The notes beneath the pieces were generated by a model. It made no database searches and was not told where the DNA came from. It saw only the letters and a program-made list of their open reading frames with translations. The position numbers were made by a program, and so were the translations under genes. A stretch of DNA of 53,537 nucleotides. It comes from Oscillospiraceae bacterium (GTDB lineage Bacteria > Bacillota > Clostridia > Oscillospirales > Oscillospiraceae). Position 1 is the stretch's first letter, and every line of letters starts with the position of its first letter. Below, piece after piece: positions 3,819-50,495 of this stretch. The stretch lies in assembly GCA_902778665.1 (NCBI GenBank), contig CACYYN010000030.1:1-53537 (forward strand), in the 5' to 3' direction.

Positions 3819-3852
3819 TGTGACAGTTGTGTGACATTTCTTCTGGTATACT
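3819..3852 (+). promoter_or_regulatory. Promoter with 11-bp direct repeats, LysM leader gene
   Basis: Two exact TGTGACA heptamers (3819-3825 and 3830-3836) repeat at 11 bp and are followed after 10 nt by TATACT (3847-3852). The geometry matches the promoter at 271-304. The repeats cover the -35 position, as activator sites of OmpR/PhoB-type regulators often do. Confidence 0.6.
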
Positions 3853-3909: not shown

Positions 3910-4116
3910 ATGGAACTCAATGAAAAAATTCTGAAGGATGAAAACCTGGAAGAAGTGCAGGGCGGAACCCAGATTCCCGTCATCATTAAAAGCGGTGATA
4001 CCCTGGGGGCTCTTGCCAAGAAGTACAACTGTTCGGTTGAAGATCTCTGCCGCTGGAACAATATCCGCAACGCAGATCAGATTGAAGTCGGCCAGAAGGT
4101 TGTCATCAAATACTGA
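3910..4116 (+). CDS. LysM-domain small protein with double-glycine leader
   Basis: 68 aa with an AAAGGA site. Residues 1-19 (MELNEKILKDENLEEVQGG) form a double-glycine leader with the LEEVQGG end recognised by C39 peptidase exporters. Residues ~22-68 form one LysM domain: SGDTLGALAKKYNCSVEDL, then WNNI and IEVGQKVVI. LysM domains bind N-acetylglucosamine-containing glycans such as peptidoglycan. The gene therefore looks like a one-domain wall-binding protein exported by a bacteriocin-type route instead of Sec. It has its own promoter and terminator (4131-4170). No exporter lies in the window. Both halves are clear in sequence; export is inferred. Confidence 0.8.
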   Translation: MELNEKILKDENLEEVQGGTQIPVIIKSGDTLGALAKKYNCSVEDLCRWNNIRNADQIEVGQKVVIKY

Positions 4117-4130
4117 GAAAAGGCATACGC

Positions 4131-4170
4131 AGCTTCAAACACGGTCCGTCTTCGGGCCGTGTTTGAAGCT
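4131..4170 (+). terminator. Terminator of the LysM leader gene
   Basis: 18-nt arms (4131-4148 and 4153-4170) with one wobble pair and a TCTT loop, followed by TTTTC. It is a strong intrinsic terminator 15 nt after the stop codon. Confidence 0.85.
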
Positions 4171-4191
4171 TTTCAGGGGCAGAATCTTACG

Positions 4192-4220
4192 TTGACAATT
4201 CAGGCTGAGATTATTATAAT
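4192..4220 (+). promoter_or_regulatory. Consensus promoter of the STAS-kinase gene
   Basis: TTGACA (4192-4197), a 17-nt spacer and TATAAT (4215-4220): a perfect sigma-70-type promoter. The surrounding ~28 bp are nearly identical to the promoter of the STAS gene at 7682. Confidence 0.88.
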
Positions 4221-4304: not shown

Positions 4305-5491
4305 ATGGACGAGCTCCGCTATACACTGCAGGAAGGGAATCTGGTAATCTATCTTGTGGATAAAATCGACTCTGCCAATGCACCACGGGTGGAAGCTGCT
4401 ATTCGGAGTGCTTTGCAGGAGCATCCGTCTGACACGGTGATTCTTGACTGTGAAAAGCTGGATTATATCAGCAGTGCAGGGCTCAGAGTGCTGCTTCGCC
4501 TGAAGCAGGATGTGGATGACACACGCCTCGTGAATGTCAGTCCCGACCTTTATGAAATTTTTGATATGACAGGCTTTGTGGAAATGATGGACATCCAGAA
4601 GCGGTTTCGTATCATTTCCGTTGAGGGCTGTGAAGTCATTGGTCAGGGGGCCAACGGCAAGGTCTACCGGATAGACAGTGACACGGTTGTCAAATCCTAT
4701 TTCGATTCGGACGCCCTGCCTGAAATCAAACGGGAGCGTGAGCTTGCACGCACTGCTTTTGTAGCCGGGGTGCCCACGGGGCGATTCCCTATGATGTGGT
4801 GCGAATCAAAGAGGGCGGTTATGGCTCCGTTTTTGAGCTGCTCAACGCCACCAGCTATGCAAAGCTGCTGATACGCGGTGAAAAAACGGTGGATGAGGTG
4901 GTGGAGATGAGTGTTCAGCTGCTGAAGCTGATTCATTCCAGAACGGTGAAACCCGATGCCCTGCCGAATATGAAGGCGGTTGCAACCGATTGGGCAGATT
5001 TTCTGACAGATTATCTTCCAACCGAGTTGTCCCAAAAGCTCAGTAAGCTGATTGCTGATGTGCCAGAAGATGACCACATTCTCCACGGTGATTACCACAT
5101 CAAAAATGTGATGCTGCAGAATGGAGAGAGCCTCCTCATTGATATGGACACCCTCTGCCACGGCCACCCGATTTTTGAATTTGCCAGCATTTACAATGCC
5201 TATGCGGGTTTTGCGGTGCTGGATCACAACATTCAGAAGGAATTTCTCGGCATATCCTATGAAACCTCCGTTGAATTCTGGCAGAAGACTCTCCGGAAGT
5301 ACTTTGATACCGACGATGCCGCCTTCCTGCAGCAGATTGAGGACAAGGCGAAGATCATCGGCCATGCCCGCATTATGCGCCGGACGATCCGTCGCGGCAG
5401 GCTTGAAACGGAAAACGGCCGGGCGATGATCGAGGCCTGCTCTTCTATCCTTTCCGAGCTTCTCCCCAGAACAGACAGTCTCACATTCTGA
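4305..5491 (+). pseudogene. STAS domain fused to aminoglycoside-phosphotransferase-like kinase, frameshifted
   Basis: Start at ATG 4305 (GAGAGG upstream; another Met at 4278 is in frame). Residues 1-100 are a STAS domain with YISSAGLRVLL, where the Ser is the usual phosphorylation site of anti-sigma-factor antagonists. A kinase fold follows: GQGANGKVYRI (ATP loop) and VVKSY (Lys). After VAGVPTG near 4780 the frame is lost and the kinase continues in another frame from ~4790 to 5491. That part holds ILHGDYHIKNVM (catalytic HGDxxxxN) and LIDMDTLC (metal-binding Asp). One missing G in the GGGG run at ~4779 would restore a ~395-aa protein resembling the TIGR02172 family. It may be a true frameshift or a sequence error. 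Confidence 0.72.
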
Positions 5492-5518: not shown

Positions 5519-5815
5519 ATGAACATTAAAAAACAGCTCAACGGCACAGAGCTCACCCTATCCCTCTCCGGTGCCCTGGACACGGAAAATGCCCCGAAGC
5601 TGGAAGAGGTGATGAATGAATCACTGACAGGGGTGACCTCCCTGATCATCGATCTGAAGGATCTGAATTATATCTCATCTTCCGGCCTGCGTGTTCTGCT
5701 CATGGCCTCCAAAACCATGAACAGGCAGGGCACCATGGTGGTGAAGAACCCGAATGAAGTCGTCAGTGAAGTCTTCGAATTCACAGGTTTTAACGATATT
5801 CTCACCATTGCCTGA
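5519..5815 (+). CDS. STAS domain anti-sigma factor antagonist
   Basis: 98 aa, a single STAS domain like SpoIIAA/RsbV. The motif YISSSGLRVLL near residue 55 holds the Ser that such proteins have phosphorylated by an anti-sigma kinase and dephosphorylated by a PP2C/SpoIIE phosphatase. It lies 27 nt after the STAS-kinase gene with an AAGGAG site, so it is probably cotranscribed, and it faces the SpoIIE phosphatase gene (5890-7431). A partner-switch role is inferred from family and context. No RsbW-like kinase is in the window. Confidence 0.9.
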   Translation: MNIKKQLNGTELTLSLSGALDTENAPKLEEVMNESLTGVTSLIIDLKDLNYISSSGLRVLLMASKTMNRQGTMVVKNPNEVVSEVFEFTGFNDILTIA

Positions 5816-5889: not shown

Positions 5890-7431
5890 CTATTGCTCGG
5901 CGGAAGACGGGTGATCCGGACCTTTGTACTCCAGACATAGCATTGTCAGGTCGTCAAACTGCTCGGCATTGCCCACAAAGGCATCCACCGAATTGCGGAC
6001 GATTTTGAGTGTCTCCTCCGGATCTGCTTTCGCAGCGGCGCTCAGGGCATCCATCATTCTGCTTGTTTGAAACAGCTCGGAATTCGCATTTTTTGCCTCT
6101 GGTACCCCGTCGGTATAGACAAATATCTTGTCGCCTTTGTTGAGCATAATCTCATATTCTCTGTATTTTGACCCTTGCATACCGCCGAGTACGAATCCGT
6201 GTCTATCCCTGAAAAGCTCATATTTTCCGTTACGGCATAGTGCAGGATATTCATGCCCTGCATTGGCACAGGTCAGTTTGCCCGTTGAAAGCTCCAGAAT
6301 GCCGATCCATGCGGTTACGAACATATCCATTTTGTTCTGGGTGCAGAGAGATTCGTTTGCTCTGGTCAGAACCTCTTCCGCTCCGATCCCAAGGGTTGCA
6401 AAGTTCTGCAGTATCGTCTTGGAGATCATCATGAAGAGGGCTGCGGGTACGCCTTTGCCGCTGACATCCGCAATCACGACGCCCAGATGATCATCATCGA
6501 TCATGAAGAAATCGTAGAAGTCACCGCCGACTTCCTTTGCCGGGTCCATGCTCGCATACAGATTAAACTCCTTCCTGTTCGGGAAAGGCGGAAAGAGGGA
6601 GGGCAGCATGCTCGCCTGGATGTCTCTGGCCATGTTGAGCTCTGTCTGTGTGGAGGCAAGTATCGAGCTGTAGTAGTTAAAGATGATGCAATACATCACA
6701 ATCAGCGACATCAGGATCATTCCGTAATTTGACGCGTTGCCGAACTCTCCGATCGTGGTAATGTAATTAAAAAGCGGAAAGAATATGAAGGTCAGAGCCG
6801 CCACCTTCTGATTGGTCGGGATCCTGGAGCGCACAATCAGGATCGTTGTGATCACGGATGACACAATGAGAAAGATATCCTCTGCAGCGAATGCCGGCAT
6901 CGCATGATAGATTCCGTTCGAATCTACCCGGAAGGTGGTCGGATAGAAACAATTGGATAAAATAACCAGACTCTCCAGCAAAAGCAGAATCGGGAACCAT
7001 TTGTCAGCCCATCGTGCCAGCTTGCCTTCAAATTCAAGTGTGACCCTGACATACAGATAAAAGAAATAGATCAGAATAAGGTCGATCAGCTTGCTGAGCA
7101 GCACGAATAAAAACTTGATGCCGCTCTGCCCCGGGACGCCTGTTGTGAAATACATCAGCGCATTCACCACAAAGCCGGCACTCGTCAGAACGATCAGAGC
7201 ACGAAAAGTCTTCGCACCTTCTCCTTCCTGCCGCATCGAGCCGTAATACAGGGCCGCACAGGTAAACGCTCCCATCACATCGACACCGCAGTCGAATAAA
7301 TACTCCTTCATTCTTGCGAAAATCTCATCCTCGTAGATTACCCATGTAAAGATAAAGCAGGCCAGCAAAGAAGCGACAGTAAAAATCATGCCGAACAGCA
7401 CACTGTGATTTTTCAGTTTCCTGAGCACCAT
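5890..7431 (-). CDS. Membrane-anchored SpoIIE-family PP2C phosphatase
   Basis: 513 aa. Residues ~10-255 hold about seven hydrophobic segments, a membrane sensor module. Residues ~260-500 are the SpoIIE/RsbU phosphatase: MARDIQASMLP, VGGDFYDFF (metal-binding Asp), VIADVSGKGVPAALFM (second metal Asp), CANAGHEYP and FDDLTMLCLEY. Such enzymes dephosphorylate STAS proteins to release a sigma factor. Flanking STAS genes at 5519 and 7682 are the obvious substrates. Start is uncertain: AGGAG lies only 2 nt from the ATG at 7431 and better fits the next codon, GTG at 7428. Confidence 0.9.
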   Translation of the reverse strand: MVLRKLKNHSVLFGMIFTVASLLACFIFTWVIYEDEIFARMKEYLFDCGVDVMGAFTCAALYYGSMRQEGEGAKTFRALIVLTSAGFVVNALMYFTTGVPGQSGIKFLFVLLSKLIDLILIYFFYLYVRVTLEFEGKLARWADKWFPILLLLESLVILSNCFYPTTFRVDSNGIYHAMPAFAAEDIFLIVSSVITTILIVRSRIPTNQKVAALTFIFFPLFNYITTIGEFGNASNYGMILMSLIVMYCIIFNYYSSILASTQTELNMARDIQASMLPSLFPPFPNRKEFNLYASMDPAKEVGGDFYDFFMIDDDHLGVVIADVSGKGVPAALFMMISKTILQNFATLGIGAEEVLTRANESLCTQNKMDMFVTAWIGILELSTGKLTCANAGHEYPALCRNGKYELFRDRHGFVLGGMQGSKYREYEIMLNKGDKIFVYTDGVPEAKNANSELFQTSRMMDALSAAAKADPEETLKIVRNSVDAFVGNAEQFDDLTMLCLEYKGPDHPSSAEQ

Positions 7432-7681: not shown

Positions 7682-7990
7682 ATGGAAGAGTTTGGTTTAA
7701 CTTATAAAAAAGAGGGGACCACTCTGATTGTGGAACCGAAGGGACGGCTGGATACTGCCACCTCTCCCGAAATGGAAAGACGCCTGCAGCCGGAACTGAC
7801 AGGCATGAAAGACGTAATCATGGATTTTGCCGGTGTAGACTATCTTTCCTCCGGCGGCCTTCGTGCACTGCTGAACATAGACCAGCAGATGGAAGAAAAG
7901 GGCGGCTGCCTGAAGCTCATTCATGTGAATGAGTATATTATGGAAATTTTTGAAATTACCGGGTTTTCGGATCTTGTTCCTGCGGAATAA
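7682..7990 (+). CDS. STAS domain anti-sigma factor antagonist
   Basis: 102 aa, a single STAS domain. The core YLSSGGLRALL near residue 58 keeps the Ser expected to be phosphorylated. The C-terminal IFEITGFSDL matches the last helix of this family and the corresponding stretch in the STAS genes at 4305 and 5519. It is read from a promoter nearly identical to that of the STAS-kinase gene, so the two are probably coexpressed. It diverges from the SpoIIE phosphatase gene, its likely partner. Confidence 0.9.
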   Translation: MEEFGLTYKKEGTTLIVEPKGRLDTATSPEMERRLQPELTGMKDVIMDFAGVDYLSSGGLRALLNIDQQMEEKGGCLKLIHVNEYIMEIFEITGFSDLVPAE

Positions 7991-50369: not shown

Positions 50370-50495
50370 TCACCAGCTGCCGGATGCTCCACCCTCCTGC
50401 TCCGGTTCGGGGTCTACAGGCGGCCGAAGTATGATGCCTCCTGCAACCGTTTCCATGGCTTCCGCGGTAAGCACTTTCATTTCAAGATCTTTCAT
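50370..50495 (-). CDS. 41-aa peptide with double-glycine leader
   Basis: Starts at ATG 50495 with GGGAGGG 8-9 nt upstream. Residues 1-20 end in LTAEAMETVAGG, a double-glycine leader; the core of 21 residues begins IILRPPVDPEPEQE and has no Cys, so it does not look like a lanthipeptide. The sequence is Pro/Glu-rich. It lies 27 nt after the membrane-protein gene on the same strand. It is the third such leader gene in the window. No processing enzyme is adjacent. Confidence 0.68.
   Translation of the reverse strand: MKDLEMKVLTAEAMETVAGGIILRPPVDPEPEQEGGASGSW

Follow-up and report, generated by a model that had tools for sequence, protein, structure and literature searches.

Double-glycine exporters have been mined for antimicrobials and signals, and small double-glycine proteins are often filed as bacteriocins. 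In the part of the literature on NHLM/NHLP export systems drawn on here, the precursors are described as carrying long leaders of the nitrile-hydratase or Nif11 type in front of cores that are short and vary greatly, and as being often encoded beside modification enzymes (Haft et al., 2010, PMC2887384). According to the excerpts used from the work on two related peptidases, leader docking involves hydrophobic residues at -4, -7 and -12 on PCAT1 (PMC6959990) and Leu-12, Glu-8 and Leu-7 on LahT (PMC6363468), and the LahT150 protease tolerates many double-glycine leaders, including those far shorter than the Nif11 type (PMC6363468). A role in biofilm, and not an antimicrobial one, is reported for the EbfG1-4 proteins and their transporter PteB in the sections consulted of PMC4997328.

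The window, that is, the whole stretch of 53,537 nucleotides analyzed, makes up contig C30 of a draft genome (2.73 Mb, 79 contigs, 84% complete). The gene under study and its flanking signals are as follows:

3844..3852, + strand: weak promoter candidate, an extended -10 (TGGTATACT) found by eye, good -35 missing
3910..4116, + strand: gene of the LysM mini-protein with a double-glycine leader, an ORF of 68 amino acids plus stop
3910..3966, + strand: double-glycine leader MELNEKILKDENLEEVQGG, residues 1-19, with G-1, G-2, V-4, L-7 and L-12
3967..4113, + strand: predicted mature protein TQIPVIIKSGDTLGALAKKYNCSVEDLCRWNNIRNADQIEVGQKVVIKY, residues 20-68, one complete LysM domain
4131..4170, + strand: terminator-like hairpin with an 18-bp stem and then a short T tract, from folding energy against shuffles

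Translation of this gene, together with a PF01476 match over residues 25-67 that spans positions 2-43 of the 43 in the profile (E = 1e-15; 57.8 bits, cut-off 20.9 bits), confirms the description in the initial annotation of a 19-residue leader joined to one complete LysM domain. The leader motif is formed by residues L8, L13, V16, G18 and G19. In the AlphaFold2 model, built on an alignment of 20 sequences including the window protein, residues 1-17 are disordered (pLDDT below 50), and from residue 21 onward the block-mean pLDDT is 78-84, with the elements in beta-alpha-alpha-beta order (strands 21-25 and 63-67, helices 32-38 and 43-50). The curated bacteriocin-leader model PF10439 gives the window protein 14.7 bits, under its cut-off of 27.1 bits; TIGR01847 is absent from its matches and is reached by just 6 of 20 members of the same protein class (class A, see below), with a best E of 0.019. 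No nitrile-hydratase or Nif11-type long-leader family is found among the matches of the window protein, the leader of which has 19 amino acids. The tryptic peptide of the uncut precursor is DENLEEVQGGTQIPVIIK, and the semi-tryptic peptide of the mature form would be TQIPVIIK.

A purine-rich RBS-like sequence (GGAGAAAGGAAA) was recognized by eye upstream of the ATG. The region 4117-4185, downstream of the gene, has a folding energy of -33.5 kcal/mol (z = -6.6; as good in 0 of 200 shuffles), in agreement with the terminator of its own that the gene had been credited with. The hairpin is absent from the list of a consensus terminator scan, probably because its T tract is short. A promoter of its own, likewise ascribed to the gene, finds no support: the promoter scan gave no upstream site of 9/12 or better, and reading by eye just the extended -10 listed above. 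The single perfect sigma-70 site lies downstream of the gene (4192-4220), before a STAS gene, and would serve the latter rather than the LysM gene.

The genus to which the window belongs consists of uncultured ruminant-gut Oscillospiraceae and is represented by 102 genomes. A first survey at E <= 1e-6 gave matches in 17 of 37 same-genus genomes, its own included, and in 0 of 23 others of the order. A profile of 20 members matched 64 of the 102 genomes at E <= 1e-6, a count into which LysM proteins of other classes, and some long ones, also enter, with up to 10 profile matches per genome in some of them. The window type, class A, comprises 51 genes with full-length or nearly full-length matches (E about 1e-21 or better) in 46 of the 102 genomes, the window's own among them; the search for small LysM proteins with such a leader, suggested in the initial annotation, thus yielded full-length relatives. 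Nineteen class A relatives that were aligned share 37-69% identity with the window protein, and G18 and G19 are invariant across all 20 aligned members. In 11 pairs, which share sequences, dN/dS is 0.06-0.24 for the whole gene and 0.00-0.21 for the mature part; leader-only values are noisy (1.47 in one pair, not computable in two). The window gene is a real, conserved gene under purifying selection. One peptide-pattern scan of named genomes returned 53 loci, 28 of which match the query from residue 1-8 to residue 68, and these 28 are MAGs of uncultured Oscillospiraceae, Ruminococcaceae, Clostridiales, Clostridia or Eubacteriales. Where the record title of a relative states its origin, this is the gut of roe deer, yak or goat. 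RUG in the record names stands for rumen.

A single C39-peptidase domain is encoded in the window's own genome, on contig C11, within an ABC exporter of 731 amino acids that scores 932.4 bits against TIGR03796 (NHLM_micro_ABC1; cut-off 853.3). This ABC1 protein adjoins an ABC2 protein just below the cut-off of TIGR03797 (704.7 vs. 709.4 bits) and a short HlyD-like protein, 141 amino acids against the 421 positions of the model, which matches TIGR03794 weakly (34.4 bits vs. a cut-off of 156.2). The C39 domain, formed by residues 1-153 of ABC1, matches LahT150 (PDB 6mpz, E = 2.7e-78) and holds Cys33, His107 and Asp123, which, going by the C39 family, we take to be the catalytic residues. The exporter, located on a separate contig from the window gene, is presumably the cognate exporter of the window protein. 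TIGR03796 is matched above cut-off in 63 of the 102 genus genomes; in the 393 genomes that sample the rest of the order, it is above cut-off in 22, none listed as the same genus, and 28 match at E <= 1e-200.

The presence of this exporter follows that of the mini-proteins across the genus. ABC1 is above cut-off in 44 of 46 genomes with class A vs. 19 of 56 without (Fisher p = 1.9e-11, related genomes being treated as independent in the Fisher tests and in the placement control). The C39-peptidase ABC exporter predicted from the window gene is therefore present in its own genome and in nearly all carriers; as to carrier genomes without one, which were to count against the idea, two exist (G225 and G226, class A present and no exporter above cut-off). 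The same contig carries an above-cut-off exporter for 25 of the 51 class A genes, always within 10 kb (25/25), and the other 26, the window's included, are on contigs without one. Random placement, applied to 24 pairs with G217 left out, would put 13.9 of the 24 within 10 kb, the product of chances being 6e-9. Restricted to the 11 contigs that reach at least 40 kb, it predicts 3.0 such pairs, against 11 observed. Short contigs force part of the 25/25 linkage, not all of it.

The genus exporters are surrounded by a wider set of small leader-bearing proteins, including several LysM classes and proteins with tandem CW_7 repeats. Class B proteins have about 87 amino acids, with 'GGAG.WQ.YAKG' followed by LysM, and class C LysM proteins (about 65-78 amino acids) are often encoded near ABC2. 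The window's own genome contains a further LysM cargo of 92 amino acids on contig C15 (locus L033, 4297-4575; LysM E = 6e-12). Class D proteins carry two CW_7 repeats (PF08230; E = 1.3e-34, 118.1 vs. 25 bits in the one protein tested, to which seven more align with 53-72% identity); at E <= 7e-23 there are 64 matches, spread over 51 genomes, and a threshold of E <= 1e-6 raises the number of genomes to 56, while the window's own genome has no match. An exporter is found in 48 of 51 genomes with class D vs. 15 of 51 without (p = 2.9e-12), and all 36 same-contig pairs lie within 10 kb of each other, a raw count taken without placement control. Class D occurs without an above-cut-off exporter in G158, G231 and G235, although the CW_7 gene of G235 adjoins one that is split over two frames. 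The system is thus wider than the initial annotation had it, since several LysM classes and CW_7 cargo share the leader type.

In 36 genus loci, all 79 unique leader-bearing proteins show both glycines (G-2, G-1) and are hydrophobic at -4 and -7, a count from profiles that included the leader, with several loci from the same genome and with the best pattern-fitting GG taken in proteins that have several. A hydrophobic residue occupies -12 in 78 of 78 unique proteins, and Asp or Glu is at -10 in 77 of 79. A profile restricted to the LysM columns found 65 LysM ORFs in these loci, all of them short (<170 amino acids) and all with a leader, which was recognized by pattern in 63 and by reading in 2. 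One LysM mini-protein (L073, 12322-12702) apparently has two tandem double-glycine leaders (..LDAVTGG.. and ..LLKVSGG..). A double-glycine-leader family with a 'DGVDRHSWFVT' core and no LysM (L032, 2330-2521; L073, 10867-11037) occurs near an exporter or a class A gene in three genomes (the window's own, G169 and G215).

Outside the genus, the combination of leader and LysM was not found among the matches listed for the order and the class. In the order (394 genomes, own included), the matches listed at E <= 1e-9 contain none, besides the own gene, that starts before model position 11. In the class (391 genomes, own included), those listed at E <= 1e-11 with starts at positions 6-10 are frames of 505-536 amino acids, and frames of about 124-204 amino acids match just from about position 15 onward. 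No listed match among the 393 other order genomes and the 390 other class genomes covers the leader in a short frame, the two samples overlapping and many genomes having just 15 first-look candidates scored, so that misses are possible. In the short-frame order matches G591:C7, G566:C13 and G432:C24, plus G591:C3 and G556:C23, no LysM protein with a double-glycine leader was called; outside that check lie the matches of G207 and G335 (131 amino acids each), G313 (51 amino acids) and G540 (110 amino acids, with a stop). Twenty exporter regions from 19 of the 22 non-genus order genomes above cut-off, six of them ending at contig edges at about 7-14 kb, contain no LysM or CW_7 cargo, and several contain other double-glycine or Nif11-like peptides. 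Because genus sequences had served to train the gene caller, all ORFs of at least 30 amino acids in these regions were additionally searched with profiles A1 and A2, which gave six matches at E <= 0.01 (five ORFs), all leader-driven. With no LysM or CW_7 cargo in the regions covered outside the genus, the pairing with this exporter looks like an invention of the lineage, with one phage exception.

These data also bear on whether the protein leaves the cell at all. The double glycine could be there by chance, in a LysM protein that stays in the cytoplasm or the forespore; the LysM models of the spore proteins SafA and SpoVID do score weakly, and the window gene stands alone, away from the exporter. 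Such an explanation is very improbable in view of the invariant GG, the -4/-7/-12 pattern, and the co-occurrence and linkage with the exporter. LysM frames from other bacteria look different as well: the 20 that were read of the other 25 loci of the pattern scan (19 frames of 276-788 amino acids and one running to a contig edge) have no such leader in the stretch shown.

The exception is a phage contig of 133,655 bases (IMGVR_UViG_3300028888_000063), recovered in 2 scans and the one metagenomic contig on which a phage-borne copy rests. It contains a double-glycine LysM gene of 63 amino acids (L192, 3007-3198; GC 0.30) with an RBS seen by eye and a complete leader motif, and in alignments of 61 residues the protein shows 46% identity with the window protein and 49% with a G169 protein of class A. 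The gene is located inside a tRNA cluster (10 tRNA genes in 19 kb), and the contig encodes Dda-like and DnaB-like helicases and relatives of RecJ and Sak4. This location, together with the use of LysM and CW_7 as wall-binding modules of endolysins (PHROG endolysin matches; Cpl-7), would suit decoys on the wall that shield its peptidoglycan against adsorbing phages, endolysins and foreign hydrolases, the phage copy serving to exclude rivals. As the phage evidence is one metagenomic contig, and a literature search for 'LysM' with 'superinfection exclusion' gave nothing relevant among the matches listed, decoys are an unlikely explanation. A broader version, tentative and in our estimate rather doubtful, is a dedicated route for wall 'caps', in which NHLM-shipped LysM/CW_7 sets would decide access to peptidoglycan and the phage copy would re-coat the host wall via the host exporter. 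If true, the caps would control binding by phages, lysins, and own or foreign hydrolases. In any case, the copy found in a phage gives a starting point for work on function.

Other genes noted in the window are the following:

42-236, - strand: second peptide with a double-glycine leader, 64 amino acids, ..ALSDEELGRVDGG / VFLMPELEEL.., at the contig end
510-986: cNMP-binding-cluster protein, from Pfam
4305..4871, + strand: STAS-domain protein with an interrupted frame (STAS E = 4e-18)
4796-5491, + strand: phosphotransferase-like part continuing the STAS gene in another frame (APH family, E = 1.7e-11 on 4796-5488)
5519..5815, + strand: STAS-domain protein, anti-anti-sigma-like (STAS E = 9e-18)
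5890..7431, - strand: SpoIIE/PP2C-type phosphatase (SpoIIE E = 1e-48)
7682..7990, + strand: STAS-domain protein (STAS E = 1.5e-16)
50370-50495, - strand: third peptide with a double-glycine leader, 41 amino acids, ..LTAEAMETVAGG / IILRPPVDPEPEQEGGASGSW, a gene-model call only

The 64-residue peptide has no relative by tblastn (E <= 0.01) in the loci compared; neither it nor the 41-residue one figures in the initial annotation of the LysM gene. The STAS/phosphotransferase-like frame of 4305-5491 breaks between about 4796 and 4871, through a sequencing error or a real break. The product of 4305..4871 is a partner-switch-type neighbor and no more than a possible member of a unit with the LysM gene. 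The cluster of the STAS protein 5519..5815 recurs in other genus loci, some of which are exporter loci, and the phosphatase 5890..7431 clusters by single linkage with sensor phosphatases and HATPases from other genus loci.

Among the recurrent neighbors in the 36 genus loci, grouped by single linkage with one to a few members of each cluster Pfam-tested, the most frequent are large secreted or lipoprotein-like proteins (24/36; L065, 4162-6267; L072, 7288-9159; and others), interleaved with the mini-protein genes, their secretion signal or lipobox being read by eye and 20 of them aligned. In Pfam they give just zinc-ribbon or low-complexity-type matches, most under the curated cut-offs shown; the best PDB matches of one that was modeled are Ig domains with low TM-scores, for which reason these neighbors are named merely Ig-like in part. 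Response-regulator-like proteins of 266-273 amino acids occur in 19 loci, in a cluster that also takes in two proteins of 199 amino acids and one regulator from the window that is unrelated. Further recurrent neighbors are a protein of 163-173 amino acids (16/36; one member is without a Pfam match), the HlyD-like protein (16/36), DUF218 proteins (14/36, two Pfam-tested), a mixed phosphatase/HATPase cluster (11/36) and the STAS cluster (9/36), the last two including the window. No RiPP modification enzyme was noticed among the scanned members of these clusters. In L069, L080, L095 and L105, a cNMP-binding-cluster protein, a metallo-hydrolase-like protein of 265 amino acids (HLHLDH, by eye) and a protein of 470-485 amino acids occur together near the mini-protein genes.

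The STAS and SpoIIE-type neighbors suggest, without proving it, a regulation linked to the cell envelope. The response regulators (19/36), STAS proteins (9/36) and phosphatases or HATPases (11/36) would also suit mini-proteins that act as exported signals, sensed by the producer and fed into these regulators. A folded wall-binding domain is, however, odd as a diffusible signal, and none of the recurrent neighbor clusters looks like a dedicated receptor, which makes signaling quite improbable.

The best explanation, to which we assign a probability of roughly 0.78, is that an NHLM-type PCAT has been re-used for the secretion of peptidoglycan-binding mini-proteins, most likely with a coating or occupying role and under envelope-responsive control. 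The C39 domain of the exporter (HlyD-like protein, ABC1 with C39, ABC2) would recognize the 19-residue leader and cut it after Gly19, the leader staying inside the cell, while the 49-residue LysM domain would be threaded out and fold outside. There it would bind the GlcNAc/MurNAc chains of the wall. One exporter would serve the whole cargo family, from the single-LysM classes to the tandem CW_7 repeats, and control would be exerted via the response-regulator, STAS, HATPase and SpoIIE-type neighbors. Such a route, independent of Sec, would put wall-binding proteins outside the cell.

The biological purpose is the least certain part of this scheme; it may be the non-catalytic coating or occupation of the peptidoglycan of the producer itself and perhaps of its neighbors. 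A single LysM is usually a weak binder. Killing is an alternative: with a bacteriocin-type leader, an exporter of a bacteriocin family and, in some genomes, numerous paralogues (as many as 10 matches), the mini-proteins might be antimicrobials whose LysM or CW_7 domains target the peptidoglycan of competitors to kill or stall them. Many bacteriocin cores vary fast, whereas the mature part is here under purifying selection; its 49 residues are nearly all LysM, without a toxic, catalytic or pore-forming segment, and no immunity family was recognized among the scanned neighbors. An antimicrobial function is accordingly considered improbable. Coating is favored over killing for three reasons: apart from a binding domain the mature protein contains little, two different wall-binding domains use a common route, and selection on the mature part is purifying.

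Compared with described systems, neither the exporter nor the leader type is new. What is apparently new is an NHLM/PCAT exporter whose entire cargo consists of LysM or CW_7. In the open-licence literature, the matches listed name no LysM or CW_7 protein with a double-glycine leader. The NHLM/NHLP systems resemble the one found here in having an ABC1 with C39 (above cut-off here), an ABC2 (marginal here), an HlyD-like protein and several Gly-Gly precursors per genome; unlike theirs, the precursors in this genus pair a short leader with a peptidoglycan-binding domain that is complete and conserved. PCAT1 with its substrate CtA and LahT150 share with it the C39 domain, the hydrophobic docking at -4/-7/-12 and the cleavage after GG, as given in the excerpts used of PMC6959990 and PMC6363468. 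CtA being, in the same portion of PMC6959990, a substrate of 90 residues, precursors of about 65-110 residues fit in size. These excerpts mention no LysM or CW_7 cargo (PMC6959990, PMC6363468). EbfG1-4/PteB of Synechococcus elongatus likewise combine small proteins with a GG motif and a transporter with a cysteine peptidase, but mature EbfG is described, in the sections consulted of PMC4997328, as having no domains of known function, whereas the genus cargo is a recognized wall binder. Since both LysM and CW_7 are wall-binding domains whose class of ligand is known, the question of which further cargo such exporters transport can be tested directly. LysM and CW_7 domains are ordinarily part of catalytic or larger proteins, usually exported by Sec or released by holins. 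The genus cargo has its wall-binding folds in common with ordinary LysM proteins and with endolysins carrying LysM or CW_7 (for Cpl-7, the part used of PMC5705596), but unlike in these, the domain stands alone, behind a bacteriocin-type leader.
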